Source: a virus
Length of the DNA: 64,000 nucleotides
IMG/VR virus record: IMGVR_UViG_3300047095_000752
Span: 62,001 to 126,000 of that record
Reading direction: 5' to 3' (one strand)
Numbering within the stretch: the first letter of the stretch is position 1; each line of letters starts with the position of its first letter. The notes below the pieces were generated by a model. The model saw only the letters and a list, made by a program, of their open reading frames with translations, did not search any database and was not told the DNA's origin. A program made the position numbers and the translations under genes. Positions 18,427 to 62,499 of the stretch are shown here, piece by piece.

Positions 18427-19191
18427 ATGCCTGTAAAATTGAAATATGATTTTGTTTACAATTTCTTTAAAGAAAAAGGTTGTGAATTATTAGAAACGGA
18501 ATATGTCGGTACACACACTAAAATGAGATATATATGTGAATGTGGTGATGAAAGTGTAATCTCATATAATAAGTTCCAACGAGGTAACAGATGCGCAAAA
18601 TGTGCCGGTAATGAAAAACATACATATGAAGAAGTATATAAGGCATTTGCCTCTAAAGGCTATGAGTTGTTAGAAACTGAATATGTTAATATAGGTACCA
18701 AAATGAGATATAAATGTGAATGTGGTAATGTAAGTGAAATAAGATTTTACGCTTTCAAAAGGGGAAGTGGATGTAAAAAATGTCAAATCGAAAATAATTC
18801 CGGAGAAAATCACTACAGATTTAAAAAAGATCGTTCCCGATTATGCCGAACTACTTATTTATCGTTTGATCTTAAAAAACTCCACATCTTAAAAGACGAT
18901 CCAAATTATGATAACCACCTTCAATCCAAACATAAAGCTCAATTAAATCCTTCCCGTTGGGCTAAATCCGAGTACGCTGTAGATCATATATTCCCTCGCG
19001 TAGCTTTCATAGATAACAATTTAGATAATATTCACGGGGGAGTATTAATCAAAGAAATCTGCAATCTCAGAGAAAACTTAAGAATAATAAATAGAAAAGA
19101 TAACCAAACAAAAGCCGGAAAATACTCCCAAGAAGACTTCCTCCAATGGTTTAACAATAACCTAAATAAAAAAATAAAAGCCAGTGTATAA
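18427..19191 (+). CDS. HNH homing endonuclease with two zinc-ribbon repeats
   Basis: 254 residues and the only convincing plus-strand gene. Two N-terminal repeats of about 55 residues (GCELLETEYVG..TKMRYICECG..C..C; GYELLETEYVN..TKMRYKCECG..C..C) are DNA-binding zinc ribbons. The C-terminal HNH nuclease has YAVDHIFPRVAF, NLDNIHGG and ICNLRENLRIINR, ending EDFLQWFNNNL. Ribosome site AAAAGGA lies 8 nt before ATG. Free-standing mobile endonuclease lying at the 5' end of the beta C-fragment. Paralogues at 23507 and 31513. Confidence 0.93.
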   Translation: MPVKLKYDFVYNFFKEKGCELLETEYVGTHTKMRYICECGDESVISYNKFQRGNRCAKCAGNEKHTYEEVYKAFASKGYELLETEYVNIGTKMRYKCECGNVSEIRFYAFKRGSGCKKCQIENNSGENHYRFKKDRSRLCRTTYLSFDLKKLHILKDDPNYDNHLQSKHKAQLNPSRWAKSEYAVDHIFPRVAFIDNNLDNIHGGVLIKEICNLRENLRIINRKDNQTKAGKYSQEDFLQWFNNNLNKKIKASV

Positions 19192-23492: not shown

Positions 23493-23521
23493 AAAACTCA
23501 CTGAAATTAATCAGTGAGTTT
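23493..23521 (-). terminator. Terminator overlapping HNH stop codon
   Basis: Perfect 11-bp stem AAACTCACTGA / TCAGTGAGTTT. The stop codon of the HNH gene lies in or beside the loop. Confidence 0.82.
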
Positions 23522-24664
23522 GCCTTTAAACCATTCCATGAACTCTTCTTGGTCGTATTTACCGGACTTCTGTCCATTCTCTTCTCTTGGTATTATTCTC
23601 AAGTTTTCTCTTAAATTGCAAATATTTTTTACTATTAGAGGACCATGAATATTATCTAGATCATTATCTATAAAAGCTTTACGGGGGAATATGTGATCTA
23701 CCGTGTAATCAGATCTATCCCATATATTACTTGATGCCTTGGCGACTTTTTGGGATTGGATGTGATTATTGTAGTTTGGATCGTCTTTTAATATATGTAG
23801 TTTACCATAATCAAACCCAAGATATGTCATTCTTAGAATACGGGTTCGATCTGGGTTAAATCTTGGATTGTTCTCACCTCTAACTTTATCATCTAAATAA
23901 CATTCCCGACACCGTTGTCCTATATTTTTAAAGTTATTAAATTTCATTTTAAATGTATGATTTCGGTCACATTTCATTATAAGGTATTTATGAGCATTTA
24001 TATATGTTTTACTTAATAAACTATAACCAAAACTTTCTATATGACTTTTAACGACTTCGTATTCGGGTCGAAATTTACCAAAACATTCTGGACATCGGTG
24101 ACCCACGTGAACAAACCCGACAAAACTCATTTCAAATATGTGATTATCCGGGCACTTGATTTTCATGTTTGTTTTATTGTTGATGTATTCTGTATCTAAC
24201 AGTAAATATCCTTCAACATTTATTTTAGACTTTACATAATTAAAATCATTTTTACGTTCCTGTGCAAATCGTATTGAGACGCACTTATTACATCGATTAT
24301 CCTGACTATAAAAACTGCTAAACCGTACCTTATATGTGTGGTCTGCGGGACATTTTATTGTTATTTTTGAGTTTACACCCTTATAATTTCCTATATCAAT
24401 TAATGTGTAACCATAGTCATTTAGTATTTTAGATATTTCATCAGATCCATGCTTGACCTCTTTCTTAATACATTTCTTACAACTAGTAGTCCGTCTAAAA
24501 TTATTATATGGTATCTCCGATATATTACCGCATGAGCATTTATATTTCATTTTGGTTTGTGTATTAATATATTCTTCTTTACTGACTAATAATACACAGT
24601 TTCGATCTAAATATGTTTGTAATACTTGTTCGTAGGGTACGGGTTTAGACATATGAATTTTCAT
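23507..24664 (-). CDS. HNH homing endonuclease with four zinc-ribbon repeats
   Basis: 385 residues from the ATG at 24664, preceded by AGGT; a longer frame overlapping the beta gene lacks a ribosome site. Four repeats of about 60 residues, each with GY.LL...Y.N..T.M..KC..H and a C..C pair, then an HNH domain YTVDHIFPRKAF / DLDNIHG / ICNLRENLRIIPRE, ending EEFMEWFKGKL. Site-specific mobile endonuclease 59 nt downstream of the beta N-fragment stop. Same family as 18427 and 31513. Confidence 0.93.
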   Translation of the reverse strand: MKIHMSKPVPYEQVLQTYLDRNCVLLVSKEEYINTQTKMKYKCSCGNISEIPYNNFRRTTSCKKCIKKEVKHGSDEISKILNDYGYTLIDIGNYKGVNSKITIKCPADHTYKVRFSSFYSQDNRCNKCVSIRFAQERKNDFNYVKSKINVEGYLLLDTEYINNKTNMKIKCPDNHIFEMSFVGFVHVGHRCPECFGKFRPEYEVVKSHIESFGYSLLSKTYINAHKYLIMKCDRNHTFKMKFNNFKNIGQRCRECYLDDKVRGENNPRFNPDRTRILRMTYLGFDYGKLHILKDDPNYNNHIQSQKVAKASSNIWDRSDYTVDHIFPRKAFIDNDLDNIHGPLIVKNICNLRENLRIIPREENGQKSGKYDQEEFMEWFKGKLTD

Positions 24665-24723
24665 TCTAAAAATACCTACATGAACTTGTCGTGTAGGTAG
24701 TATATTTAATTTATTTATTTGAA

Positions 24724-26301
24724 CTAAGCTATGGTATAAGTGACACCATAATCTTTTAAACTTTCTTTTAATCCCCATTTATAAGCTAACACCATCAATA
24801 GGGGAAATTTGTAGGATCCCATGTACCCTATGAGGTATGCGCCGTTTTGGAGGAACTTACTGTGGATCTTCATGATCGAATACGATGATTCGAAGCGCCC
24901 TACGTTAATTGTGGGATAGAATATCGGATAACGTACGATCTGGTTGACTAGTATTTTCTGTTGTCCATTTATCACGAACGTTCCATTCGCAGTAAGATAC
25001 GGTAGGTCCACATGCACTTCGTGTATGTTACCCTCCGGATCTTTAAGTTGGATCTGGTAGCGCTCCTTGATCGATTGATATATCTCCGATGCTCCTGTAT
25101 GCACTTGTTTTACTTCCATACTCTTCAATTTCAGCGGAACATCTTTATCTTCGAGGAGTTTGAAGGCATCTGAGATATCATCTTTTAAATTAACTCTAAA
25201 ATCAGTCATACGTTTATTTAAAATATGTGCAGGGCTTTGATAATCTAAAAGCTTGGGTACATCGGCGGACTTAATGATCATATTCGTTGAAAAGTTTTTG
25301 GCAGGATCTCTTTTTAATAATTGAGTTACAAGTTTATTTATAATCTCAGCTTGCTTCTCAGGACTCTTCCGATCAATCTTCTTTGAAATTTCTTTAGCCT
25401 TCTCAAGATCACCCATAACGCTATAAACAACAGATCTTGTGATTAATTTATTATGATTTTCAAAATCTTTTTCGCGATCAATTGTAGAGTCAGCTTTTGT
25501 ATAGTTCTTAATAGCGTCCTGTACGATTTGTTCGTGCTGCTTACTTACGAGAGGAGATTCCTTAGTGGCTATTTGAGCTACTTCTTCAGCGTGATTTGAT
25601 TCCCCTGTGACTCCATCTGTATTTTGTTGTAGTCTTAATAGTATATTTTTAACTCGGACTAAACTATTATTTTTAGCTAAGACATCATACAGCTTTACGA
25701 AGCGCCCACCATCTTTATTATAAACGAACATTATAATTTTTTCGAATGGTATTGATTCTCTTTTACCAGCTTCTAACATTAATAACATATTAAAAAAGAT
25801 ATAACACTTCTTGTAGAATAGTTTATCGGATAAAGGCTTATCGACGTTCACGGCATATAACAAGATTGTTTCAAATTTATCTTTATCGATCTCACTAGCA
25901 GTTTCTAAATATTGATTATATAATTTAGATCCCTGACCTGTATCAAATCTTTTTGTACGATACATTAAGTCTACGGCGTTTAAATACCGTGTGGCATCGT
26001 AAAAGAAGTTGTATCCATTTACTTTAGTGTACTCACCGGGTCTACCTTTAATTGGTAGGAGGTCTCGATCTTTAATTAATTTTGTATATTCTGGGGTGAG
26101 ATATGATTGTGGTCTTGTTATGGTAGGTACAAAAACATATCGAGCATATTGCTTTTTGAAATTTAAAAAGTTATAGGTCTCTAATAAATTTACATTTTCA
26201 CCATAGAAATAAAAACATAAGTTCTTTTTACTATTTGGATCTTTTATTGGTATGACTAATTCATCATACGGTATAAAAAGCTTTTGGTTTAATAAATTCA
26301 T
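24724..26301 (-). CDS. rpoB: RNA polymerase beta subunit, N-terminal fragment with extra phage domain
   Basis: 525 residues from the ATG at 26301 (AAGGT 8 nt upstream). A start at 26364 would lie inside the terminator hairpin at 26338. Residues 1-220 are a phage-specific domain shared with the hydrophobic protein at 26400. Residues about 390-525 are true beta sequence: SMEVKQVHTGASEIY, VDLPYLTANGTFVINGQQK (the GTFIING block) and YKFPLLMVLAYKWG. It ends inside the lobe; the remainder is the ORF at 15830. Confidence 0.92.
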   Translation of the reverse strand: MNLLNQKLFIPYDELVIPIKDPNSKKNLCFYFYGENVNLLETYNFLNFKKQYARYVFVPTITRPQSYLTPEYTKLIKDRDLLPIKGRPGEYTKVNGYNFFYDATRYLNAVDLMYRTKRFDTGQGSKLYNQYLETASEIDKDKFETILLYAVNVDKPLSDKLFYKKCYIFFNMLLMLEAGKRESIPFEKIIMFVYNKDGGRFVKLYDVLAKNNSLVRVKNILLRLQQNTDGVTGESNHAEEVAQIATKESPLVSKQHEQIVQDAIKNYTKADSTIDREKDFENHNKLITRSVVYSVMGDLEKAKEISKKIDRKSPEKQAEIINKLVTQLLKRDPAKNFSTNMIIKSADVPKLLDYQSPAHILNKRMTDFRVNLKDDISDAFKLLEDKDVPLKLKSMEVKQVHTGASEIYQSIKERYQIQLKDPEGNIHEVHVDLPYLTANGTFVINGQQKILVNQIVRYPIFYPTINVGRFESSYSIMKIHSKFLQNGAYLIGYMGSYKFPLLMVLAYKWGLKESLKDYGVTYTIA

Positions 26302-26337
26302 GTTGAGTACCTTATGTTCTTTAAATCCGGTATTGAA

Positions 26338-26367
26338 AATAATTGGGTTATTACGTAAACCCAATTA
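26338..26367 (-). terminator. Rho-independent terminator before beta N-fragment
   Basis: Stem AATTGGGTT / AACCCAATT followed by ATTATTTT on the minus strand. Located after the gene at 26400 and 37 nt before the chosen beta start, so transcription of beta may depend on readthrough. Confidence 0.75.
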
Positions 26368-50692: not shown

Positions 50693-51025
50693 TTAATTCC
50701 TTTGTAGGTTCAGGTGCTTTGAAATCGTTAATCTAAATGCTGGGATATAAGACGGATTTAGATTACGAAGGTCGGCGATTTCCGTCTGGATTTTTATATA
50801 ATGCTCGTTGCCGTCATCCCCATATAAAGTGTATTTATAATAAAACGGGGAATTGAAAAATCTTTTCATATGAGTTGTTACTGGTAAATCTCTTAAGTAA
50901 ACCCTATAATATTGGGTTATTATCTTTGGTTTTATAACATATAATAGTTCATATACTTTAAACATGGAATCTGTAAATAATTTTATAATTTTAGAATACT
51001 TTTTAATATCGGAAGAAGTCATCAT
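50693..51025 (-). CDS. Tiny paralogue, cluster 5 (member 1)
   Basis: 110 residues. Helix IKLFTDSMFKVYELLYVI, KIITQYYRVYLRDLP, then YYKYTLYGDDGNEHYIKI and FRLTISKHLN. Helix-plus-strands plan of the family. Confidence 0.66.
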   Translation of the reverse strand: MMTSSDIKKYSKIIKLFTDSMFKVYELLYVIKPKIITQYYRVYLRDLPVTTHMKRFFNSPFYYKYTLYGDDGNEHYIKIQTEIADLRNLNPSYIPAFRLTISKHLNLQRN

Positions 51026-51329
51026 ACAATTTTGGACTCGATGCTGTGAATTTTATCTCTGATGTTGTATATGCACGTGCGCCCCACGAGAAAAACTTAG
51101 AATGTACTACCCATATATTTGCTATTCCAATTACCTTCTGTAACATGGTTGACGAATATGTTATTGATCGATTTATAGATTGGCTTGTATTTAAGAAATA
51201 ATCATTCTTGATATAAACTCTATTGTATTGTATGAATATTCCTGCTTTCTTCCCTATCACGTGTATAATAGATTGCGCCCGACATAATAATTCATTGTAT
51301 ACCCGTAGTGGAAGTTTATGGAGCATCAT
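51003..51329 (-). CDS. Tiny paralogue, cluster 5 (member 2)
   Basis: 108 residues. Helix ELLCRAQSIIHVIGKKA, IFIQYNRVYIKND, then strands and FFSWGARAYTTSEIKFTAS. QYNRVYIKN is similar to QYYRVYLRD of member 1, showing recent duplication. Confidence 0.67.
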   Translation of the reverse strand: MMLHKLPLRVYNELLCRAQSIIHVIGKKAGIFIQYNRVYIKNDYFLNTSQSINRSITYSSTMLQKVIGIANIWVVHSKFFSWGARAYTTSEIKFTASSPKLYDDFFRY

Positions 51330-51892
51330 TCTTCATCATCTCCATAATCATCGAATTCGTCGATTTCATCGTATTGTGCCGCAACCCCATTATAATATTT
51401 TGTTTTATTATATGAATCTTGATAGTCCATGAAAAATGCCTTAAATAACTGACTAAATTCATCCGTGTATCCATGTTCACCTCGTCCGCCGGTATAATTG
51501 AAAAACATTATAAACACAAATGAACTATACCCCAATCCAAATATATTTATCGTTTGAGACTTTTCCCGTAAAAAATCAAATATTTTATTCACATCATTGT
51601 ATAATACAGAGTGTACAGACGTATTTATATAAGATCCTAGACTACAGGTTCGACTTAATATGAACTGGAAAACATCCATCAGAAATCCTATACGCACACA
51701 AAGTTCGTACATAGGACTACACCTACCCTCGTCATTACAACACGCGACGATATACGTTTCATGCAATGAGGCGTGTGGATCTGGATAGTACTCGCTTTTT
51801 AGTAAATTCTTGATATAATCTCTAAAACAAAATCCATCGAGAGTTGTCTGGTGCCTTCCGTTGAGTTGCACTATCATTCGGGTACGCTCCAA
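51326..51892 (-). CDS. Larger cluster-5 protein, unknown
   Basis: 188 residues. TLDGFCFRDYIKNLL, YIVACCNDEGRC, then helix VRIGFLMDVFQFIL and strand FGLGYSSFVFIMFF; very acidic end (YDEIDEFDDYGDDEE). Longer than other members; the internal helix-strand unit could be a family domain with additions. Confidence 0.65.
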   Translation of the reverse strand: MERTRMIVQLNGRHQTTLDGFCFRDYIKNLLKSEYYPDPHASLHETYIVACCNDEGRCSPMYELCVRIGFLMDVFQFILSRTCSLGSYINTSVHSVLYNDVNKIFDFLREKSQTINIFGLGYSSFVFIMFFNYTGGRGEHGYTDEFSQLFKAFFMDYQDSYNKTKYYNGVAAQYDEIDEFDDYGDDEE

Positions 51893-52263
51893 GTCTTTCG
51901 GGTCAACGTAGTGTCCTTAGTGTAGATAATCTCGTAATGTAACTCCAAAGTGTTATACGACTGATCATCATATGAACCCTTCAACCGTAGTATATTCAAT
52001 TTATTATACGCTGCAAATAAATAATCGTGATCTCCATGCGGGGGTTCTTCCTTAACTTGGCATATCGTATAGGGGGTTGAATTTAAATCTATAGTTAGAC
52101 CCACATCTTTATTTTTTATAGGAGATTTGTTGTATGTTGGAGCCATATAATACATATAAGTCGGTAGGGCTATATATTTCAACTTAGGTGTACAGCGGTA
52201 TAATAAATAGAAAAGCCCCGTTATAAGTTTTTCTATTTTGAGTGCAAATTGTTTACACATCAT
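51874..52263 (-). CDS. Tiny paralogue, cluster 5 (member 4)
   Basis: 129 residues. Helix ALKIEKLITGLFYLLYRC, then KYIALPTYMYYMAPTYNKSP (P-Y motif), VGLTIDLNSTPY. Close to member 6 (YYMSPSYTSTPDNY). Confidence 0.7.
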   Translation of the reverse strand: MMCKQFALKIEKLITGLFYLLYRCTPKLKYIALPTYMYYMAPTYNKSPIKNKDVGLTIDLNSTPYTICQVKEEPPHGDHDYLFAAYNKLNILRLKGSYDDQSYNTLELHYEIIYTKDTTLTRKTWSVPE

Positions 52264-52616
52264 TTGATAGCTTCGGATGCGAATGTAATTTGACTAAATT
52301 TTGTATGGACAGTTTTATCAAATTTGTTGGGAGAACCACTATATTTGAATATACTAAATAATGTAAGTTTGAAGTTAGATATATTCATAATTTGAGTGCC
52401 AGACCATGCTATATCACTCGATATAAAATTTGTATTAACAATCAACTTATAGTCATCCAAGCCCGAATCTAATGTAAAGTCATAATACGATCTATTATTA
52501 TGTAAGGAGGGCTGCAAAGTTCTATACATATACCCTGATATCGCTATTATGTCGACGTTAAGTTCTCGTAATAAACTCAAAATTTCACATATCGAATTCT
52601 CTAACTTTAGTATCAT
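52260..52616 (-). CDS. Tiny paralogue, cluster 5 (member 5)
   Basis: 118 residues. Helix LENSICEILSLLRELNV, DIIAISGYMYRTLQPSL, YYDFTLDSGLDDYKLIVN, FKLTLFSIFKYSG. Shares YMYRT..PSL with member 7 (YLYRTGDPSL). Confidence 0.7.
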   Translation of the reverse strand: MILKLENSICEILSLLRELNVDIIAISGYMYRTLQPSLHNNRSYYDFTLDSGLDDYKLIVNTNFISSDIAWSGTQIMNISNFKLTLFSIFKYSGSPNKFDKTVHTKFSQITFASEAIK

Positions 52617-52984
52617 GCTTTACCTTTCGGTCTAGTTGTGTGTAACTGGGTATACGATAAAGATATATCACCACCGTCATCCTCGGCGGATACTAATTTA
52701 AATATAGTCAGTCTACATTTGTTTATATAAATATTTTCAAACCTTGATTTTTGACCATGATTAATTTTTGGTATGTATTCAAATCTAGTCATTATATATC
52801 GTATACTATCATTTATATTGAATGATACGTGGAATTCGTTATAATTGTCTGGTGTTGATGTGTATGATGGACTCATATAATACAAAAATGAATGAAAGCA
52901 TATACACTCCATCGGTCTTTTAATGCTTAACATTCTGAATATGGTCACTATACAATTCTCGATTAATTCTGGTATATGATTCAT
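52613..52984 (-). CDS. Tiny paralogue, cluster 5 (member 6)
   Basis: 123 residues. Helix LIENCIVTIFRMLSI, ECICFHSFLYYMSPSYTSTP, FHVSFNINDSIRY, CRLTIFKLVSAED. RLTIFKLV matches KLTLFSIF of member 5. Overlaps both neighbours by 4 nt. Confidence 0.7.
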   Translation of the reverse strand: MNHIPELIENCIVTIFRMLSIKRPMECICFHSFLYYMSPSYTSTPDNYNEFHVSFNINDSIRYIMTRFEYIPKINHGQKSRFENIYINKCRLTIFKLVSAEDDGGDISLSYTQLHTTRPKGKA

Positions 52985-53322
52985 TTGTATTTAATAAGGA
53001 TAGGGTTGATCATACAGTCAAATGCTTTTTGGTCTAATACAAATAACTTGGGGGGTTCACTATCCGGTCCAACCTCGAATATCGGGCATTTTACGCATGA
53101 CATGTGATAAATAATATTTGATGTACCCTCGATTCTTTTGTAAAAGTCCACTTCATCATTTGTGTTGAATACGTAATCTATAAGGTCCCAATAGAGCGAC
53201 GGATCCCCAGTTCTATACAGGTAGTTTGGAATATGTATATATTTAGGTTTAAATTTTAATATTAAATTTAATATTTTACAAATCGAAACTTCAACGTAAT
53301 GAATAGGGTCAGTCGTTGCCAT
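52981..53322 (-). CDS. Tiny paralogue, cluster 5 (member 7)
   Basis: 113 residues from the ATG at 53322 with AAAAGGA upstream. Helix VEVSICKILNLILKF, KYIHIPNYLYRTGDPSL, YVFNTNDEVDFY, PKLFVLDQKAF. Best example of the IxIPxYxYxxxxPS motif. Confidence 0.7.
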   Translation of the reverse strand: MATTDPIHYVEVSICKILNLILKFKPKYIHIPNYLYRTGDPSLYWDLIDYVFNTNDEVDFYKRIEGTSNIIYHMSCVKCPIFEVGPDSEPPKLFVLDQKAFDCMINPILIKYK

Positions 53323-53671
53323 TGTTAAATCCTTTTTTAAGAGTTGGAATATCAACCGAATCAAAAATGTATATTGGGTATGGTGAATGTGAGAATTTAT
53401 TTAAATTGAATTTAAATAATGTATTTTTACCAGTACTCCTATATACTTCGTTGAGGTCATTGGGTTTCATGTTGTACATTTTTCTGGGTGGGTTATCAAC
53501 TCCGAATCCACTGGAGTCTATATAGTAGTTCGTAGTTCGCCTCCATATATAACAAGGTGTAAATAACACGAAGGGTCGTACACCAGAACTTCCTAATTTC
53601 GATTTAACTATTAATATAAGGGTAGATGATATTGCAGATTCTATCATGTCGATGAAATCCATAGTTAACAT
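53309..53671 (-). CDS. Tiny paralogue, cluster 5 (member 8)
   Basis: 120 residues. Helix FIDMIESAISSTLILIVKS, VLFTPCYIWRRTTNYYIDSS, TLFKFNLNKFSHS. Keeps helix, P-Y strand and terminal strand. Unknown. Confidence 0.67.
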   Translation of the reverse strand: MLTMDFIDMIESAISSTLILIVKSKLGSSGVRPFVLFTPCYIWRRTTNYYIDSSGFGVDNPPRKMYNMKPNDLNEVYRSTGKNTLFKFNLNKFSHSPYPIYIFDSVDIPTLKKGFNNGND

Positions 53672-54049
53672 CTATAACCTCCTGTCGGTAAGATTTGATG
53701 TTATTCGGATATCAGCGTAACCCTTCTTTATATTTACATAATATAAATTGTTGGCATTTGATAGCCCATTAAAATAAATCAGTTTTAGATTATCTACTAT
53801 ATAGTTTTTTGGTCTAGGTGGGCTATAAATGAGTATGTCACCAACACCATCGATACGATATGGTTCAAACATTAAGGTATTGACTATAAAATGAACATGC
53901 CGATCATGTACACTTGATGCGGCTGGTGCATATGCTACTAAATTTAAGTACAAAAGTGAATTCCTAATATCATATAAATTAAAAATAGTTTTTATTATTG
54001 TCATTACCGCTGGTATGGATGCTGATATATAATTTCTGGTGCTACTCAT
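53672..54049 (-). CDS. Tiny paralogue, cluster 5 (member 9)
   Basis: 125 residues. Helix ASIPAVMTIIKTIFNLYDI, LLYLNLVAYAPAASSVHD, VHFIVNTLMFEPY, NLYYVNIKKGYADIRI. Diverged member with the same order of elements. Confidence 0.66.
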   Translation of the reverse strand: MSSTRNYISASIPAVMTIIKTIFNLYDIRNSLLYLNLVAYAPAASSVHDRHVHFIVNTLMFEPYRIDGVGDILIYSPPRPKNYIVDNLKLIYFNGLSNANNLYYVNIKKGYADIRITSNLTDRRL

Positions 54050-54437
54050 GGCATTCTCTATAATCGTATATTTCGATTCCGCGCCCCATAAATGAAATTG
54101 AGAATAAAGTTGGCTTGTGAATAAATGCTACCGCTAAGTCGACCTTTGTGTCAAAGTCGAATCCTAACGTCATAGTGGTTGAGGCATACGGTTTATATCT
54201 GTATATATCGGGAGTTAAGCTAACTTCAACATACCCTAAAAAACTTTTACAACAATCATGGACGGCGTATCTATACATAGAATCGCAGTATATGTCAGTA
54301 ACCTTTCTACTCTGCACTAAATATGACATCAAATGACTACATAATGTTATAACGAATTTACGTTTAAATATTTTACATAATATACACAGAACACTACACA
54401 CACTATATTCTATTTTTCGAACTAACACGAGATTCAA
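54042..54437 (-). CDS. Tiny paralogue, cluster 5 (member 10)
   Basis: 131 residues. Helix IEYSVCSVLCILCKIF, FVITLCSHLMSYLVQSRKV, then YVEVSLTPDIYRY and FSISFMGRGIEI. First gene behind the AT-rich element at 54465. Confidence 0.67.
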   Translation of the reverse strand: MNLVLVRKIEYSVCSVLCILCKIFKRKFVITLCSHLMSYLVQSRKVTDIYCDSMYRYAVHDCCKSFLGYVEVSLTPDIYRYKPYASTTMTLGFDFDTKVDLAVAFIHKPTLFSISFMGRGIEIYDYRECHE

Positions 54438-54464
54438 TTCAATATCCTTTCGTGGTTTTACTCT

Positions 54465-54484
54465 CTTGTTAAAATATATATAGT
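54465..54484 (-). promoter_or_regulatory. AT-rich phage promoter-like element, site 9
   Basis: Minus-strand ACTATATATATTTTAACAAG, the least conserved copy, 28 nt before the gene starting at 54437 and just after the stop at 54492. Confidence 0.5.
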
Positions 54485-54491
54485 GAGTGTT

Positions 54492-54869
54492 TTAATATAC
54501 ACTGAGTGTTAGATGTAACCTGTCGGTCAAGGGTGAACCACTGTATTCATAGTCCAAATGTAATATATCCGACTTGTGAATATTAAATACATTTATTTCA
54601 TTATTGACGTTAGTTGTATATGTTTTGTATGACTTTATTTGGTCATATACTTTAAGTGAAATTAACGGCTCTCTGTATAATGTCATATAATTATCAAAAC
54701 CGTCCAGATCAGTTTGCGAAGAAAAGAATACTAAATTCTGAGACTTCATATCGATTGAACATATATCTTTTGGCTTACATATAATATGATAAAAAAGAAC
54801 AAAAGATTTGGATATTGAGTTTTCAATTTTAGCATATAAGTCCCGTATAAAATCTTCAGCCATACGCAT
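54492..54869 (-). CDS. Tiny paralogue, cluster 5 (member 11)
   Basis: 125 residues from the ATG at 54869, which has GGGAGG before it; longer frames would overlap the promoter at 54924. Helix LYAKIENSISKSFVLFYHII, CSIDMKSQNLVFFSSQ, PLISLKVYDQI, RLHLTLSVY. Confidence 0.68.
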   Translation of the reverse strand: MRMAEDFIRDLYAKIENSISKSFVLFYHIICKPKDICSIDMKSQNLVFFSSQTDLDGFDNYMTLYREPLISLKVYDQIKSYKTYTTNVNNEINVFNIHKSDILHLDYEYSGSPLTDRLHLTLSVY

Positions 54870-54923
54870 ATTGTTACCTCCCTTAAGTTCGATTACAAAA
54901 ATAAATATCATAAGGTATGATAT

Positions 54924-54943
54924 CAATAATTAATATATATAAT
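54924..54943 (-). promoter_or_regulatory. AT-rich phage promoter-like element, site 8
   Basis: Minus-strand ATTATATATATTAATTATTG, identical to site 1, directly behind the terminator at 54944-54979. Confidence 0.66.
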
Positions 54944-54979
54944 TAAAAATCACTTACCAAAATTAATGGTAAGTGATTT
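54944..54979 (-). terminator. Rho-independent terminator
   Basis: Perfect 12-bp stem AATCACTTACCA / TGGTAAGTGATT followed by T4-5 and AT-rich sequence on the minus strand. Ends the transcript coming from the beta' C-fragment side. Confidence 0.92.
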
Positions 54980-55001
54980 AATGTAGGACTTTTAACTTAT
55001 A

Positions 55002-55370
55002 TTAGAATGCTGTATATTCCTCGATGGGTATTATGTCGAAGTGAGCGCTACGAGGAAATGATAACCCTATTATATGCCTTTTGTGTATACATGTTTTGAA
55101 ATCGGGAGTTTGGCATGGGTAGTAATTAAAATCTTTCAGAAAAATTGTCAAACCTTCGAATAAAGGGGTGTCATCAGACCATCTAACTTTTTGTATATAT
55201 CTCGGATACAAAACCGAATAATGACCATCTAAAATTAATGGGTTGTATGTGAATATGTATATTATTTCACCAATTGGATCTAGGATACGACGTAATAATT
55301 TAAAAAGTATAGGTACACATTTTAAATACAGGTCGCTTATCAATTGCTTCAGTCTCCGGTTTGTTAACAT
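55002..55370 (-). CDS. Tiny paralogue, cluster 5 (member 12)
   Basis: 122 residues. Helix CVPILFKLLRRILDPIG, EIIYIFTYNPLILDGHYSVL, YPRYIQKVRW, KRHIIGLSFPRS, IIPIEEYTAF. Tandem duplicate of the next gene (IYIFTYNPL / TYIFVTNPI; YPRYIQKVRW / YPKHKDKVLW; same TAF/NAF end). Confidence 0.74.
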   Translation of the reverse strand: MLTNRRLKQLISDLYLKCVPILFKLLRRILDPIGEIIYIFTYNPLILDGHYSVLYPRYIQKVRWSDDTPLFEGLTIFLKDFNYYPCQTPDFKTCIHKRHIIGLSFPRSAHFDIIPIEEYTAF

Positions 55371-55727
55371 CTAAAATGCGTTATAATCACAAAGTTTTAT
55401 CATTTCAAATGACGTGTCATCCACCCTTTTTATTCCTATTAAATTCTTCTTACGGACCAGCATTCTATAGTCTTCTCGACCCGTTTCGTAATCGTTAAAA
55501 TCTTGAGCCGAAAATGTCGTATAATAATTTGTATATAATTCTAGACCCCACAGTACCTTATCTTTATGTTTCGGGTATACAATTGAGGTATGGCAATATA
55601 TAGTAATAGGGTTTGTAACAAATATGTATGTGACTTTATTTATGGGTTGTATAATATTTCTAATTAAATGAAATAATAATTCTATTTTATGTGCTATTTG
55701 AGTGTATTTGTCAAAGTCTTCGTTCAT
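55371..55727 (-). CDS. Tiny paralogue, cluster 5 (member 13)
   Basis: 118 residues. Helix IAHKIELLFHLIRNIIQPIN, VTYIFVTNPITIYCHTSIVY, YPKHKDKVLW, KKNLIGIKRVDD, MIKLCDYNAF. Its start ATG overlaps the stop of the HNH relic at 55724. Confidence 0.74.
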   Translation of the reverse strand: MNEDFDKYTQIAHKIELLFHLIRNIIQPINKVTYIFVTNPITIYCHTSIVYPKHKDKVLWGLELYTNYYTTFSAQDFNDYETGREDYRMLVRKKNLIGIKRVDDTSFEMIKLCDYNAF

Positions 55728-55777
55728 TTGATTTCCTGAAGTTTAAGATTAAACCATTCTATGAATTTATTTCTTCT
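55724..55777 (-). pseudogene. Relic of HNH endonuclease C-terminus
   Basis: A second frame at the end of the beta' C-fragment reads RRNKFIEWFNLKLQEIK then stop. It matches the C-terminal ends of the three intact HNH genes (EEFMEWFKGKL, EDFLQWFNNNL, EKFLKWFKSKI). It overlaps the beta' stop by 11 nt. Best explained as the leftover 3' end of a deleted endonuclease gene; a chance match is possible because the segment is short. Confidence 0.5.
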
Positions 55778-57323
55778 TTTCTTTTAATTTTTCTATACTC
55801 AACTCACTGAGGGGTTCGCCGAATAATACTTTTTCGATCTGTGAATATTTCTTCGAGTCTTTTGAGATCAACCCAAATGTTAAACTTTTACCAAGGTTCT
55901 CATAGGCGACCCCCAGAGACCACGATATAATCGAAGGAAGAGATTTAATGCTATGTAATTCCGGATCGTATGGATCCTTCAATCTGGCTGCAATCATCGG
56001 ATCTTTCTTATTTCTTAAAATCGTTGCGAGGATGACCTCAAGGTGGCAACTATCCCAAGGTCCAAAAGTACTTAGAGCTTCGTAAAACTTCTTGTATAGG
56101 TTCTCTGGGGTCTCCCATGGACCCTTGCCCGCAACCAATGAGTCTAGGCTCTGGGCGATCTTTTCAGGAGCGATCTTAAAGAATTTAATTGTAAATAATT
56201 TAACATCTTTACCATACATTAAAGTGATACTATCAGCAGTTTCATTATAATCATCGTGGATATTAATTTCAACAGGCATTTCAATAGTAGCATTAACTTC
56301 AATATTACCAATATACATTCTAAAATAGCCTAAAGGTAACTTATAAGTATTTCCTACTTTTTCAATTGCATACTCGTCCTTGAAGATACTTTTATTGATC
56401 TTAATCGTTGTTACTTCAGCGCTGGAGTATAGATCGTTATCTTTTTGATATACCATACCTGATAAATATTTTTCTTCGTCATCTGTAATAGAGTCCGCAA
56501 GTTCTTTTAAGATATCCACCTTCTTGAAGACTACGGCCCCGCCTGTGTGAAATGAATTGTGTGTCTGAACATTATTATTCAAAAATTCTTCGGAGTCAGT
56601 TTTAAGATCATATACATATCCACAATATCCCTCTATACCGGGAACTACCTGCTCAATATCAATGTAATCATTAATATCCTGTATAAGCTTATCTGAAGGC
56701 ACAGCATTCTTTAAAGTCCAATATACAAGTCCGTCTTCAGTATTAATATCAAAGTTACAAGTATGACTTAAATGATCTGCTACAAGCTTCAACTGTGATA
56801 CAAAGTTAAAACTAAAAATCTTAGACTTGGTGTTGACTTTATCGTCGGACTTAATATTATCAAATAAGAAATGATATAAAAGGTATGTTAAGTTACTAGT
56901 ACTTATTTTAGATAAATAATCAGGATTAATACAAAAATTATATATCGAATCGCCATTAAAATATTCGGAATGATTTGCAATTATATGTAAATTAGGATCT
57001 TCAAATATATTCAACAAAATGTCAAATAGTATATCTACATCAGGCGGCTCTACCCCGTAAACAAATTCTAATTTACGTTCGGTGTTATCAACCCAAATTC
57101 TATCATGGAACATTACTATATCTTTAGCTTCAACCACCGTAGGTTGCCCGTCAAGCGACTGAATCCATACAGGGTGGTCTTCTTGGCAAAACAGCATATG
57201 TCCAGTCACAGTGCGAATAAAGCACATTGGTGCCGTTGGTGTATGCCTTTGGATCTTATATGCTCGGGTTAAACCGTCTTTACCCACGACATTGAGATCT
57301 AACTCTTTAGTTTCTAAATTCAT
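55767..57323 (-). CDS. rpoC: Split C-intein fused to RNA polymerase beta' C-terminal fragment
   Basis: 518 residues. Residues 1-256 are a C-intein: block B TGHMLFCQEDHPVWI (40-54, His50; the usual Thr of TxxH is Gln47), block F GYVYDLKTDSEEFLNNNV (235-252), block G QTHN ending at Asn256. Ser257 is the +1 extein residue, starting SFHTGG, the universal beta' FHTGG motif. Residues 257-518 are beta' C-terminal sequence. Residues about 88-205 are an insertion that looks like a decayed LAGLIDADG endonuclease. The N-intein is at the end of the ORF at 59344, so the ligated product needs trans-splicing. Confidence 0.92.
   Translation of the reverse strand: MNLETKELDLNVVGKDGLTRAYKIQRHTPTAPMCFIRTVTGHMLFCQEDHPVWIQSLDGQPTVVEAKDIVMFHDRIWVDNTERKLEFVYGVEPPDVDILFDILLNIFEDPNLHIIANHSEYFNGDSIYNFCINPDYLSKISTSNLTYLLYHFLFDNIKSDDKVNTKSKIFSFNFVSQLKLVADHLSHTCNFDINTEDGLVYWTLKNAVPSDKLIQDINDYIDIEQVVPGIEGYCGYVYDLKTDSEEFLNNNVQTHNSFHTGGAVVFKKVDILKELADSITDDEEKYLSGMVYQKDNDLYSSAEVTTIKINKSIFKDEYAIEKVGNTYKLPLGYFRMYIGNIEVNATIEMPVEINIHDDYNETADSITLMYGKDVKLFTIKFFKIAPEKIAQSLDSLVAGKGPWETPENLYKKFYEALSTFGPWDSCHLEVILATILRNKKDPMIAARLKDPYDPELHSIKSLPSIISWSLGVAYENLGKSLTFGLISKDSKKYSQIEKVLFGEPLSELSIEKLKEKKK
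56556..57323 (-). other. C-intein segment (256 residues)
   Basis: Begins at the ORF start methionine and ends at Asn256 before Ser257. Contains blocks B, F and G but no block A, which is encoded 2 kb away at 59347-59415. Penultimate His255 and terminal Asn256 are the residues needed for Asn cyclisation. Confidence 0.9.
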
Positions 57324-57333
57324 TTACAGTTCC

Positions 57334-57603
57334 TTAAATAATAGGTGAAGATGCTAATTGCCAATATACGGGCGCGTAATATTCTTCCGGGACATGTGAT
57401 TTTTTGTAGTTCTTTTCGCCTTCCCAGCAACCCATATGTTTATATTGACTAAACTTTTTATTATATCTTAATAAACATATCTTAAATTCACGAGGTTCTT
57501 CGGAATAATATAATGCACGTGTTAAACAGTCGTTGTCAGGGAGTTTATCAACGGTTTTAATCCAGTTGCTTAAATTAATTTCGTCTTTACTTATTTTGTG
57601 CAT
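57334..57603 (-). CDS. DUF551-like small protein inside the fractured beta' locus
   Basis: 89 residues. NWIKTVDKLPDNDCLTRAL at the start and YYAPVYWQLASSPII at the end match the DUF551 pattern (WI.V...LP ... VTHWMPLP.PP), common in phages, unknown function. Lies between the endonuclease and the C-intein ORF with 2-10 nt spacing; a passenger carried with the mobile element or a phage gene inserted there. Confidence 0.65.
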   Translation of the reverse strand: MHKISKDEINLSNWIKTVDKLPDNDCLTRALYYSEEPREFKICLLRYNKKFSQYKHMGCWEGEKNYKKSHVPEEYYAPVYWQLASSPII

Positions 57604-57605
57604 TG

Positions 57606-59324
57606 TTAAGCAACTTTCTTCTTAAATACATTATTTCCACAATCCCAAACACGATCATATTCATTACTTTGCATATTTTGCCACTCGGTTAATGTTGGAT
57701 CAAATGATTCTAATAGATTGTTTAATTTATGTTTTTGAAATTTAAGTCTGGAATCTCGATTCATATAATCATTGGTATAAAAGTAATTTGGTGAGCCTGT
57801 ATGCGTTAATTCAAATCCAGAGCTTTCATATATATTACCATATCCATATCTTAGATCTGAATAGGTTATTATATCACACTTGATATCTTTTGAGAAGTCA
57901 TTTACTAACTTTTGGAAACCACCGACTACATTTGTATTTAATTTTGTGCAGAATCTTAATATTTCGTAATTGTCTTTGGATCTAATTACTGTAATCATGC
58001 TAATTAAATTATTATTACTATCATAAAGTCCATAATTGAATCCACGATGAGTGTAACCTTGTATATGATTTTGGTCTAAAAATAACTCTGCGTCCTTGAA
58101 GGGAACCTTATGTATATTTAGATCCGATGTATTATATGTATTTTCATATATTTTTAATTTATTTGCAATAATCGAACAAACTATATCTTGCTTATTAAAC
58201 CATTCATCATCGAATATATGAATTAAATCAATTCCTTTTTCTTTACATAAATTCGTTTTATTGATATGGTAATGTTCATCTTTGCCTTGTTTTTCGGAGT
58301 GCCAATAGAGTCCGTTGAATTCAATTGCAAGTTTGTAGTCTGGAATGTAAATGTCGATTTCAAGTGGATTTATTAATGACCGGTCATTTTCTATTATAAT
58401 TGTATTTTCTGGTAGGATCGATTTAACGAATTCGTAAACTTCGTGCTCGCCTTTGGAAGTGCCTGACATACCCTGATGTGGGTAACAATTAAAACATCTT
58501 GGTATGTGTCCATCCGCTAAATTATCTAAAAAGATATGATTACAAGTATTACATTTGAATTCATATCGGTTATCTCGTGATATTCCATTATATTCATCTA
58601 GGCTAAATACTGGCGTTACTTTACTTAATAATCTTTTTGAATTCAACAATTTTATATAAAATACTTCTTTTAATTTAACTTTACCAGCGGCAGACGATAT
58701 ATAGTGTTTATGACCATATCGTTTAACCATTGTGTTTTCGGCTTTGTTTCTTATCTCTTTTATTTTAGATACGTTATCCACACCGTATTTTTCTTGTACT
58801 GTATTTTTAATCTTTTCACGAATTTCATTAGATTCGAATGGAGTTAGTGCTCCATATTTTTCTAAATTAGTTTTATTTCGTTTTTCGTTTATTTCTTTAT
58901 TGTCAAACAGATTTACACTACCATATCGCTCAATTCGTGTATTAAGTATTTTATTCTTAACTTTTTCATTTTTTGCCGATTGTTCATACCCATACTTTTT
59001 TAGATTTGTGTTTTTTATTTTTTGTTTTACATCTTCATTTTGAAACCCATATTCAGATCCATATCTCTCCAGATTTGTTTGTTTAATTTTGTTTTTAGTT
59101 TCTGTATTTAATCCCCTGCATTTATTAGAGCATGTTTTATAAAATCCATCTTTAAAACTTTTATATGGGGTTGGGCTTTTACAAACTTTACACAAATGTT
59201 CGTCATTAACTGAAATATATTTAATATAATATTCTGATATATGTATTTCTTTGTGTGAATGCATTATATGATTTTTTAAAGAATTTGTATCATCAAACAC
59301 TCTCTGGCAGATCTGACATTGCAT
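57606..59324 (-). CDS. Vsr/EDxHD-like homing endonuclease nested in split intein
   Basis: 572 residues. C2H2 finger (3-24, CQICQRVF..HIMHSH); zinc pairs C45/C48 and C65/C69; six repeats with exact 23-residue spacing, each ending RYG or KYG (Y88, 111, 134, 157, 180, 203), DNA-binding NUMOD-like; zinc CNTC / CFNC (258-280); then a Vsr-like nuclease core with D324 (EIDIYIPDY), E335 (AIEFNG) and YWH (340-342), and IHIFDDEW. A further 190-residue C-terminal domain follows. This is the endonuclease type found with split inteins in fractured phage genes. Confidence 0.88.
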   Translation of the reverse strand: MQCQICQRVFDDTNSLKNHIMHSHKEIHISEYYIKYISVNDEHLCKVCKSPTPYKSFKDGFYKTCSNKCRGLNTETKNKIKQTNLERYGSEYGFQNEDVKQKIKNTNLKKYGYEQSAKNEKVKNKILNTRIERYGSVNLFDNKEINEKRNKTNLEKYGALTPFESNEIREKIKNTVQEKYGVDNVSKIKEIRNKAENTMVKRYGHKHYISSAAGKVKLKEVFYIKLLNSKRLLSKVTPVFSLDEYNGISRDNRYEFKCNTCNHIFLDNLADGHIPRCFNCYPHQGMSGTSKGEHEVYEFVKSILPENTIIIENDRSLINPLEIDIYIPDYKLAIEFNGLYWHSEKQGKDEHYHINKTNLCKEKGIDLIHIFDDEWFNKQDIVCSIIANKLKIYENTYNTSDLNIHKVPFKDAELFLDQNHIQGYTHRGFNYGLYDSNNNLISMITVIRSKDNYEILRFCTKLNTNVVGGFQKLVNDFSKDIKCDIITYSDLRYGYGNIYESSGFELTHTGSPNYFYTNDYMNRDSRLKFQKHKLNNLLESFDPTLTEWQNMQSNEYDRVWDCGNNVFKKKVA

Positions 59325-59343
59325 TTAATATTTTCTTTCGTAA

Positions 59344-60834
59344 TTAGTTTTGGTCCCAAAGTTCATCTAATGAGATTATACCATGCTTTTCCGTATTTAC
59401 CAACCCCGTTGAACACTTCATAATCTTTTCTGATAACGAACAACAGGCTTGGGCAGCAAGCATACCCAGTGCCCGTGACTTTACCTGATAAATCAAATCG
59501 CCATAACAAGTGCGGCATATTTCACGACTTTTGCAAAATGTAGGGCTACGGAGTTCTACGAACTTTCCGATATGTGCATCAGTCAGTCTTTCTACCTTCC
59601 GATCCTTCTGATTTATAATATAACGACCTTGCATCCGACCAAATAATTCGGATGTTATCTTAAGTTTTAGTCCTCGTTTAGTTCCACAATCCGCATTTGT
59701 GATGTCACCCTCACACGATCCAATCGAATACACCATTTTACGATATGCATATCCACCGAACGCGGTATTTACGGCACGGTCAATAATACCCTTACGACTA
59801 CCTGCGGCGGATTCTAGGTATTGCTCAGGATCGAAACCATCAACCAACGCTTTTTCGACAGGCGGAAGGAGTTCGCCACTGGCGTTACTGATCAATCCTT
59901 TGGATACCATAATCTGACGCAATTGCGATCCACCCTTGGCCGCCCCACTTGCTATCTGGATATAAAGTCCTTCTTCTTGTGTCCTCAAATATTCCATCAA
60001 GGCAACATCCATCTCATCTAAAATTTTAATTTGTTTATTTACATCCGGCTCAGCCTTAAGTTTCTTTGAAAGGCTTTTTAATTCGGGTGAAGGTATAAAC
60101 ATATCTAAACTAATAGTCTGGGGATATTGAGTAGCAGCCTCGAAGGACATCTTGCACATCTTATCAATTGTAAGTGCGAAATCAGCTTTGTTTTTAAGCA
60201 TCACTTCTTTTAATACTTTACTCACATCTCTCGCATTCATAGGTTTATCTATAAATGGAATGTAAGATGGGAGAACACTATTGAATATAACTCTACCTGC
60301 GGTTGTGTTTGTAAGCCCGATATTCGTGTTGATCCGGACGGGATCCCCCGGATGTAGTTTTTCAGCATCTTGTACATTGTTTATAACTCTTATAGGTTTT
60401 TTATTTTCCAAGTAAGTAATTGTAAAAATACCGATATTCATTTCTTTTGATAGTGAAAAGTTAGGAGAATTTAAGAATTCAAAGCCCTGTGTTGTAATCA
60501 TTTTATTCTTAACTTCATTCTGAGCTTCAATTGAAATTGGGACGACAATAGCCATTTGGTCACCATCGAAATCCGCCATGTAAGGACCCACAACAACCGG
60601 GTGAATATCAATAGTCGGTCCATCGATTATAGTAACGTAAGCACCTTGGATCCGTCCTCTTTCGACGTTAGGATCACGTTTATATAATACTACTCGATTT
60701 TTATCTTCGATTTCTTTTACTGCGATTTTTCGAATAGTATCATAAATTATAGGATTTACTTTATATCCCTTAGAGATGTATTTCAATATCTTACGGATAT
60801 CGTCGATGGAGACTTTTTCACTTTCATGTAACAT
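59344..60834 (-). CDS. rpoC: RNA polymerase beta' middle fragment ending in a split N-intein
   Basis: 496 residues. Catalytic ADFDGDQM with D88, D90 and D92 that chelate the active-site Mg; RGRIQGAYVTIIDGPTIDIHP before it; Zn site with CKSREICRTCYGD near 445; and bridge-helix-region sequence. The beta' frame stops at LGMLAAQACCSLSEKIMK, where bacteria continue with ...FHTGG. From C474 a 23-residue N-intein follows (CSTGLVNTEKHGIISLDEL). Start has AGGAATCC ribosome site. Confidence 0.94.
   Translation of the reverse strand: MLHESEKVSIDDIRKILKYISKGYKVNPIIYDTIRKIAVKEIEDKNRVVLYKRDPNVERGRIQGAYVTIIDGPTIDIHPVVVGPYMADFDGDQMAIVVPISIEAQNEVKNKMITTQGFEFLNSPNFSLSKEMNIGIFTITYLENKKPIRVINNVQDAEKLHPGDPVRINTNIGLTNTTAGRVIFNSVLPSYIPFIDKPMNARDVSKVLKEVMLKNKADFALTIDKMCKMSFEAATQYPQTISLDMFIPSPELKSLSKKLKAEPDVNKQIKILDEMDVALMEYLRTQEEGLYIQIASGAAKGGSQLRQIMVSKGLISNASGELLPPVEKALVDGFDPEQYLESAAGSRKGIIDRAVNTAFGGYAYRKMVYSIGSCEGDITNADCGTKRGLKLKITSELFGRMQGRYIINQKDRKVERLTDAHIGKFVELRSPTFCKSREICRTCYGDLIYQVKSRALGMLAAQACCSLSEKIMKCSTGLVNTEKHGIISLDELWDQN
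59347..59415 (-). other. Very short N-intein (23 residues)
   Basis: Block A with nucleophile Cys1, then GLVNTEKHGIISLDEL and four more residues before stop. Splitting directly after block A is the atypical split position, unlike DnaE-type inteins whose N-part is about 100 residues. Confidence 0.88.
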
Positions 60835-61578: not shown

Positions 61579-62499
61579 TTAATCGTCTTCTAATAAATCG
61601 GATTCTTGAGATAAGAATTTCTTAACTTCTATGTGAAATTCATCGGGAATCATGCTTTTGTATGGTGAATTAATAATGCCATATATAAGATATGGTTCAA
61701 AAAGCTGACACGCTAGTCGTAATGGTACACCAACATTACCAACTTTTAATTTATAATTCGGTGTAATGACCGCACGAGCAGAATAGTCCACCCGCTTACC
61801 CAGAAGATGGTTTCGTATCAGACCTTCCTTCTTGGATACTTTTACTTTTACAAGCTCATATAGATCTCGCATAAATAATTGCATTCTATAACTGAAAATA
61901 TCAAACAACTGACCGGATACACTACCTAACTGAGTTCCTGCCATAATTATTTTTTGATATAACTTTGTGAGATCATCGATCTGGATATCCCCAGTAATTT
62001 CGTCAATCTGAATTGGTCTATATTCGGGTGAAATTACAGGTAATTTATTTATAAAGAAAGTTCGATCATCAACTGCTTTGTAAAGTACATCGATAATCTT
62101 ATTTCGGTCTCCACCCTCTTCACCGGTCGAAAAACGTATCTTATGGATGTTGTTTACAAATGCAGTCATACCATTAATATCACCCATATCATCTTCGACT
62201 AAATTATTATTCGAATCCAGTGAAAATATGGCTTCCCCAGATAATAAGTCGGGGATGCGTCTAAAGATACGCTTCTCTAAAATATCATATAGAAATGGGT
62301 GAACAACATTACAGTTTAGATCAATCCAAGAATAATTAGAACGTCTCTCTTTAGATCCTTCTACCCCGAAGATAGTTTCTGAATATAAACCTTGAGGGTG
62401 GAAATTCATAGACTTATCGAAGTAGATTTGATGTGATGTTATAGCTTCTAGTGCCTTCTTTTCTTTTAAAAAGACATCTACGTGAATTGGTTCGATCAT
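61579..62499 (-). CDS. rpoC: RNA polymerase beta' subunit, N-terminal fragment
   Basis: 306 residues. [37 protein letters not shown] is the beta' switch-2/rudder-proximal block (bacterial [23 protein letters not shown]). [14 protein letters not shown] near residue 32 is the phage form of the N-terminal GLFDERIFG block. It ends near bacterial beta' residue 380, and the next part begins at 60834, with two small ORFs between. AGAGG ribosome site just behind the late-type element at 62511. Confidence 0.95.
   Translation of the reverse strand: [306 protein letters not shown]

Follow-up and report, generated by a model that had tools for sequence, protein, structure and literature searches.

In 2009, Dassa et al. 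reportedly described fractured genes in phage-like metagenomic sequence, in which a split intein is accompanied by an EDxHD endonuclease. Inteins split at atypical positions have also been described, such as PolB16 OarG with an N-intein of 15 amino acids (aa) (PMC10189870), and both are already known kinds. Here, we analyzed a 64,000-nucleotide stretch of DNA (the window) from a large, uncultured phage, which spans C1:62001-126000 of a 245,225-base virus record (IMGVR_UViG_3300047095_000752). Its gene for RNA polymerase beta' very probably carries a naturally split intein in the trigger loop, divided atypically, into 23 + 256 residues, with an EDxHD endonuclease gene in the break, i.e., a fractured gene whose product would be completed by trans-splicing, as predicted from its sequence. 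The original prediction of a fractured gene with an atypical split site and a free-standing endonuclease thereby gained support from two sources: relatives with an unsplit intein at this site, and a second virus that is fractured in the same way.

In the order of transcription, all on the minus strand, the locus encodes part A of beta' (62499-61579), two small open reading frames (ORFs), part B with a 23-residue tail (60834-59344), the endonuclease (59324-57606), an ORF of 89 aa, and part C with an added head of 256 aa (57323-55767). Both ORFs that had been predicted to form beta', one of 496 aa holding part B and the N-intein (59344-60834) and one of 518 aa holding the C-intein and part C (55767-57323), are present on this strand. 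Part A, the N-terminal third (61579-62499, 306 aa), matches PHROG 2986 (E = 1e-37) and PF00623 and shares 49% identity with part A of a relative, L244, which is likewise separate (311 aa). The part B extein (59416-60834, 473 aa) contains the catalytic motif DFDGD, matches PF00623 (E = 1.5e-15), PF04998 (E = 1e-8), and TIGR02386 (E = 3.5e-48), and ends with ..SLSEKIMK in the trigger loop on alignment with its orthologs. RNA polymerase families thus cover parts A and B; the part C extein (55767-56555 including the stop codon, 262 aa), which starts with SFHTGG, was identified via its orthologs, by alignment with 24 uninterrupted ones. The N-intein with block A and the stop codon occupies 59344-59415; its 23 residues, CSTGLVNTEKHGIISLDELWDQN (59347-59415), include Cys1, which directly follows ..SEKIMK, and this corrects the predicted tail of Cys plus 23 residues. 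The C-intein (56556-57323, 256 aa) comprises block B (GHMLFCQEDHPVWI), block F (GYVYDLKTD), and block G (VQTHN). AAGGA- or AAAGGA-like sites, which resemble ribosome-binding sites, precede the start codons of the part B and part C ORFs, so that each half could be translated on its own.

The junction was located by comparison with related viruses. The first single-sequence scans for relatives returned nothing or a false match only (L005); a scan with the other beta' of this phage yielded 80 related loci, and 50 of the corresponding records, when searched, contained about 30 orthologs of the fractured beta'. In 24 intein-less orthologs, the alignment runs without gaps through the end of part B and the start of part C, mostly as ..IMR/K-T/S-FHTGG.., at a position that we take to lie between R933 and T934 of the E. 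coli trigger loop. Unsplit inteins occupy the identical residue in three relatives, G002 (386 aa), L244 (385 aa), and L259 (390 aa). The G002 intein lies in a single ORF, begins with CSDGLVHH, ends with QNHN, and keeps both LAGLIDADG motifs; that of L259 begins with Ser. The predicted ligation product, IMK-SFHTGG, finds support in these homologous unsplit inteins and in the second fractured virus. A second intein site lies three residues downstream (FH|TGG) and is filled in G036, L185, L189, L245, L246, and L250. In L244 (7001-9367), both sites are filled by tandem inteins with only Ser-Phe-His between them, the LAGLIDADG motifs being decayed in one and intact in the other. The trigger loop hence appears to be an intein hotspot with two sites 3 residues apart. 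Among the same relatives, L245 and L246 have beta and beta' fused into phage-like polymerases of about 2,900 aa; L245, L246, L250, and L259 each have several inteins or insertions resembling inteins, and some of these lie right at the catalytic DFDGD; and in several others (L148-L153), beta' is split without an intein shortly after the trigger loop, into about 780 + 220-250 aa.

Both halves were then scored against profiles of unsplit inteins. A profile of the starts of four unsplit relatives was compared with the C-terminal 23 residues of each of 2,150 distinct ORFs; the window ORF scored E = 5.2e-6 and that of a fractured relative, L260, 2.1e-5, and the next ORF scored 2.2, so that the N-intein tail is not due to chance. 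With a profile from ten unsplit phage inteins run on 308 ORFs, the window C-intein ORF scored E = 7.9e-18 and the runner-up 0.09. The splicing residues are all present, i.e., Cys1, the block B His (CQEDH), the block F Asp (VYDL), the terminal His-Asn (THN), and Ser+1; the block B His, the block F Asp, and the terminal His-Asn are invariant across the ten-intein alignment. The unsplit G002 intein was modeled with a predicted template modeling score (pTM) of 0.83, shows a clear Hint fold with a LAGLIDADG domain, and matches intein-endonucleases at 4e-18. The AF2 (AlphaFold2) model of the window C-intein has a predicted local distance difference test score (pLDDT) of 57.6 and is confident only over two terminal regions; its top PDB matches in Foldseek are inteins, some of those lower down having atypical split sites. 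A Hint fold is thus predicted for the window intein, from a C-intein model of partial confidence. A phmmer search of the C-intein ORF against PDB returned SUMO-like matches only, which we judged to be chance.

Several observations weigh against this interpretation. In the window, the block B Thr is replaced by Gln. The N-intein falls two residues short of the usual block A length, as do those of the unsplit G002, L244, and L259; a start 1-2 residues further upstream, at the usual block A spacing, was rejected because the unsplit relatives are equally short. The GExGTQ motif, near-universal before the junction, is absent from the window and changed likewise in its three clade mates; a frameshift as the cause was rejected, since the other frames, inspected by eye, do not restore the motif and the change is common to the clade mates. 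Finally, the intein profile search that the original prediction had called for succeeded with our own ten-intein profile, but PF14890 gave E = 0.034, under its cut-off, with the match ending at profile position 155/155. PF14890 also matches 4/4 of the unsplit relatives examined and the C-intein of L260 (4.3e-7), which counts in favor of an intein, but these matches likewise stay below the cut-off; the low score therefore reflects the reach of the model rather than non-membership.

The same fracture is present in L260 (IMGVR_UViG_3300022697_000186), which encodes part A, part B ending with SLAEKIMK followed by a 25-aa N-intein (CGVGLINKNKKLISMDDIWEEKDKL), a 689-aa endonuclease, and a 240-aa C-intein whose ORF reads QNHN|SFHTGG at the junction; the endonuclease stop codon overlaps the GTG of part C. 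This recurrence indicates that the fracture is neither an assembly artefact nor a one-off decay. Identities between L260 and the window are 49% for part A, 45% for the part B extein, 47% for the endonuclease, 33% for the C-intein, and 39% for the part C extein, and the retention of the layout and the splicing residues despite this divergence argues for function. In the beta' tree, the window, L244, L259, and L260 form one clade (support 100), in which the fission of parts A and B and the change of GExGTQ to an SL[SA]E[KR]IMK-type sequence are common to all four members. Supports inside the clade are 45-53, too low to tell one fracture event from two, and no additional members turned up in the last viral scan.

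If the intein halves were splicing-dead, parts B and C could assemble as separate chains, as in other split RNA polymerases, with the remnants hanging from the trigger loop. Such assembly has precedents, in that phiKZ-type phage polymerases are put together from several pieces (PMC7598289) and, provided that the enzyme is active, the A/B split of beta' and the split of beta work without an intein. However, the break lies inside a mobile catalytic loop rather than a linker, and both fractured viruses keep all splicing residues at 33% C-intein identity, which makes this explanation improbable. It is less probable still that the locus is a decaying pseudogene whose work is done by the second polymerase of the genome. 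GExGTQ is lost in the window, and another beta', which is uninterrupted, is indeed encoded; yet every ORF is open, the layout recurs in L260, and the sequence replacing GExGTQ is shared by 4/4 clade members.

The original prediction had counted an uninterrupted beta' elsewhere in the genome against itself. One is present, of 902 aa (C1:55285-57993, about 4 kb past the low end of the window), and belongs to a second RNA polymerase; it is a paralog rather than an unbroken version of the fractured gene, and many relatives have both beta' types, which also speaks against the pseudogene reading. We consider it extremely improbable that a group I or group II intron with an endonuclease ORF interrupts the gene at the RNA level. 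Intron endonucleases are known to target RNA polymerase genes of phages, going by the mention of Birkholz 2024 in PMC13282480; however, the protein whose parts are encoded on the two flanks is an unsplit intein in relatives, and Rfam gave no intron match in the region. A split intein in a fractured gene remains the preferred reading.

The endonuclease in the break (57606-59324, 572 aa) is free-standing, as predicted, and can now be assigned to the EDxHD (Vsr-like) type. It contains C2H2-like and DUF7487 repeats (DUF7487, E = 2.7e-25) and matches the homing endonuclease family phrog_3339 (E = 1.6e-121); an EDxHD-type active-site region, LEIDIYIP..IEFNGLYWHSE, is conserved by eye among ten aligned homologs, and the catalytic part weakly matches PDB entry 3r3p, a 'mobile intron protein' (E = 0.022). 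Between this gene and the C-intein lies the 89-aa ORF (57334-57603), an ORF call only, with no Pfam match and absent from L260. In L244, a gene for a 48% identical endonuclease immediately follows the unsplit beta' gene, and in the endonuclease tree, the three RNA-polymerase-linked copies cluster with one other L244 copy (support 80). The intein's own LAGLIDADG region (56658-57095), aligned to the intact CAEG / IDGDG motifs of G002, has lost the first motif and keeps a degenerate second one (FLFDNIKSDD). This fits a replacement of the LAGLIDADG nuclease by the EDxHD nuclease in the window, in an order of events that we infer from the sequences. We tentatively propose, as a possibility short of an even chance, that trigger-loop inteins of phage RNA polymerases record a stepwise nuclease replacement, from the LAGLIDADG intein of G002, through the decayed nuclease of L244 with an EDxHD gene just downstream of beta', to the window and L260, in which the EDxHD gene lies inside the intein and cis-splicing has become trans-splicing; activation of the enzyme would then wait on ligation of the catalytic loop. 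The genome encodes another EDxHD-type endonuclease (G000:C1:182586-184187), which is 44% identical, and a family that is HNH-like by eye has several copies, often beside polymerase genes (window 18427-19191; L003 337-1245 and 4327-5271; L004 2054-4059).

For the fractured gene, we propose that the two polypeptides are made separately and that the short N-intein docks on the C-intein to complete the Hint fold. An acyl shift at Cys1, transfer to Ser+1, and Asn cyclisation would then join ..SEKIMK to SFHTGG.. in one trigger loop, and the spliced B-C chain would assemble with beta and, presumably without a covalent bond, with part A. Cutting of element-free alleles is the probable role of the endonuclease, upon which the whole cassette would be copied in, the intein's own LAGLIDADG nuclease having decayed. 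A split intein would thus sit in the catalytic element that moves within a multisubunit RNA polymerase, and the enzyme could be complete only once two separately made proteins are ligated. Because unsplit and split forms of one intein occur in related viruses, the origin of split inteins, usually guessed, becomes open to experiment; in addition, N-inteins of 23-25 aa are short enough for peptide synthesis and could be useful for protein labelling.

Beta' is also split further upstream, without an intein, where the 306-aa part A is separate; this split was absent from the original prediction, and beta' accordingly requires three polypeptides and not two. DFDGD is residue 88 of part B, which places the A/B split upstream of this motif. 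Beta is divided as well, without an intein, into two ORFs 6 kb apart (15830-18313 and 24724-26364); the first of these overlaps at its end with an ORF of 423 aa that resembles an endonuclease (23507-24778, HNH-like by eye), and the beta of L244 is continuous at the split point. A further intein behind either split was rejected, since comparison with L244 and L155 shows each to be a plain fission. Directly downstream of part C, about a dozen ORFs of 108-188 aa (50693-55727) appear to be divergent copies of one family. Elsewhere in the genome, a PhoH-like ATPase (G000:C1:216625-218976; L275 2626-4977) has a P-loop intein that apparently starts with Ala and is possibly of class 3. In the literature, most subscription papers lying outside the search, we found no earlier report of a split intein or fractured gene in RNA polymerase, nor of inteins in phage RNA polymerase or in the trigger loop.

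Archaeal rPol A' and A'' inteins are contiguous, unlike the split intein of the window. Those of Mja rPol A', Mja rPol A'', and Nph rPol A'' lie in the beta' homolog and are likened to it by host protein only (PMC1635734). Polymerases of the phiKZ/AR9 type share with this phage two multisubunit polymerases per phage and a split beta', but theirs is split after the DPBB domain, with no intein described (PMC7598289); in the window, part A ends before DFDGD, the B/C break lies in the trigger loop, and beta' is not split after the DPBB domain. MIJ3 PolB is similar in its split intein, in having the two halves of the host gene separated by an endonuclease ORF, and in belonging to a jumbo phage, and differs in its host gene, DNA polymerase B, its HNH nuclease, and Ser1 (PMC6892783). 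As in AceL-TerL, VidaL, and PolB16 OarG, the break in the window and L260 follows shortly after block A, giving N-inteins of 23 aa and 25 aa, respectively; the host protein is different, and the C-inteins are larger (240-256 aa) owing to the nuclease remnant. The loci of Dassa et al. 2009 are alike in having the N- and C-intein on separate same-strand ORFs with a free-standing endonuclease between them. Unlike those loci, the host gene in the window is RNA polymerase beta', with the break within the trigger loop; moreover, its C-intein retains a degenerate LAGLIDADG domain, and its site is occupied by unsplit homologs in other viruses. Taken together, the best reading is that RNA polymerase beta', in its trigger loop, adds a new host gene and a new site to those of fractured genes with atypically split inteins.
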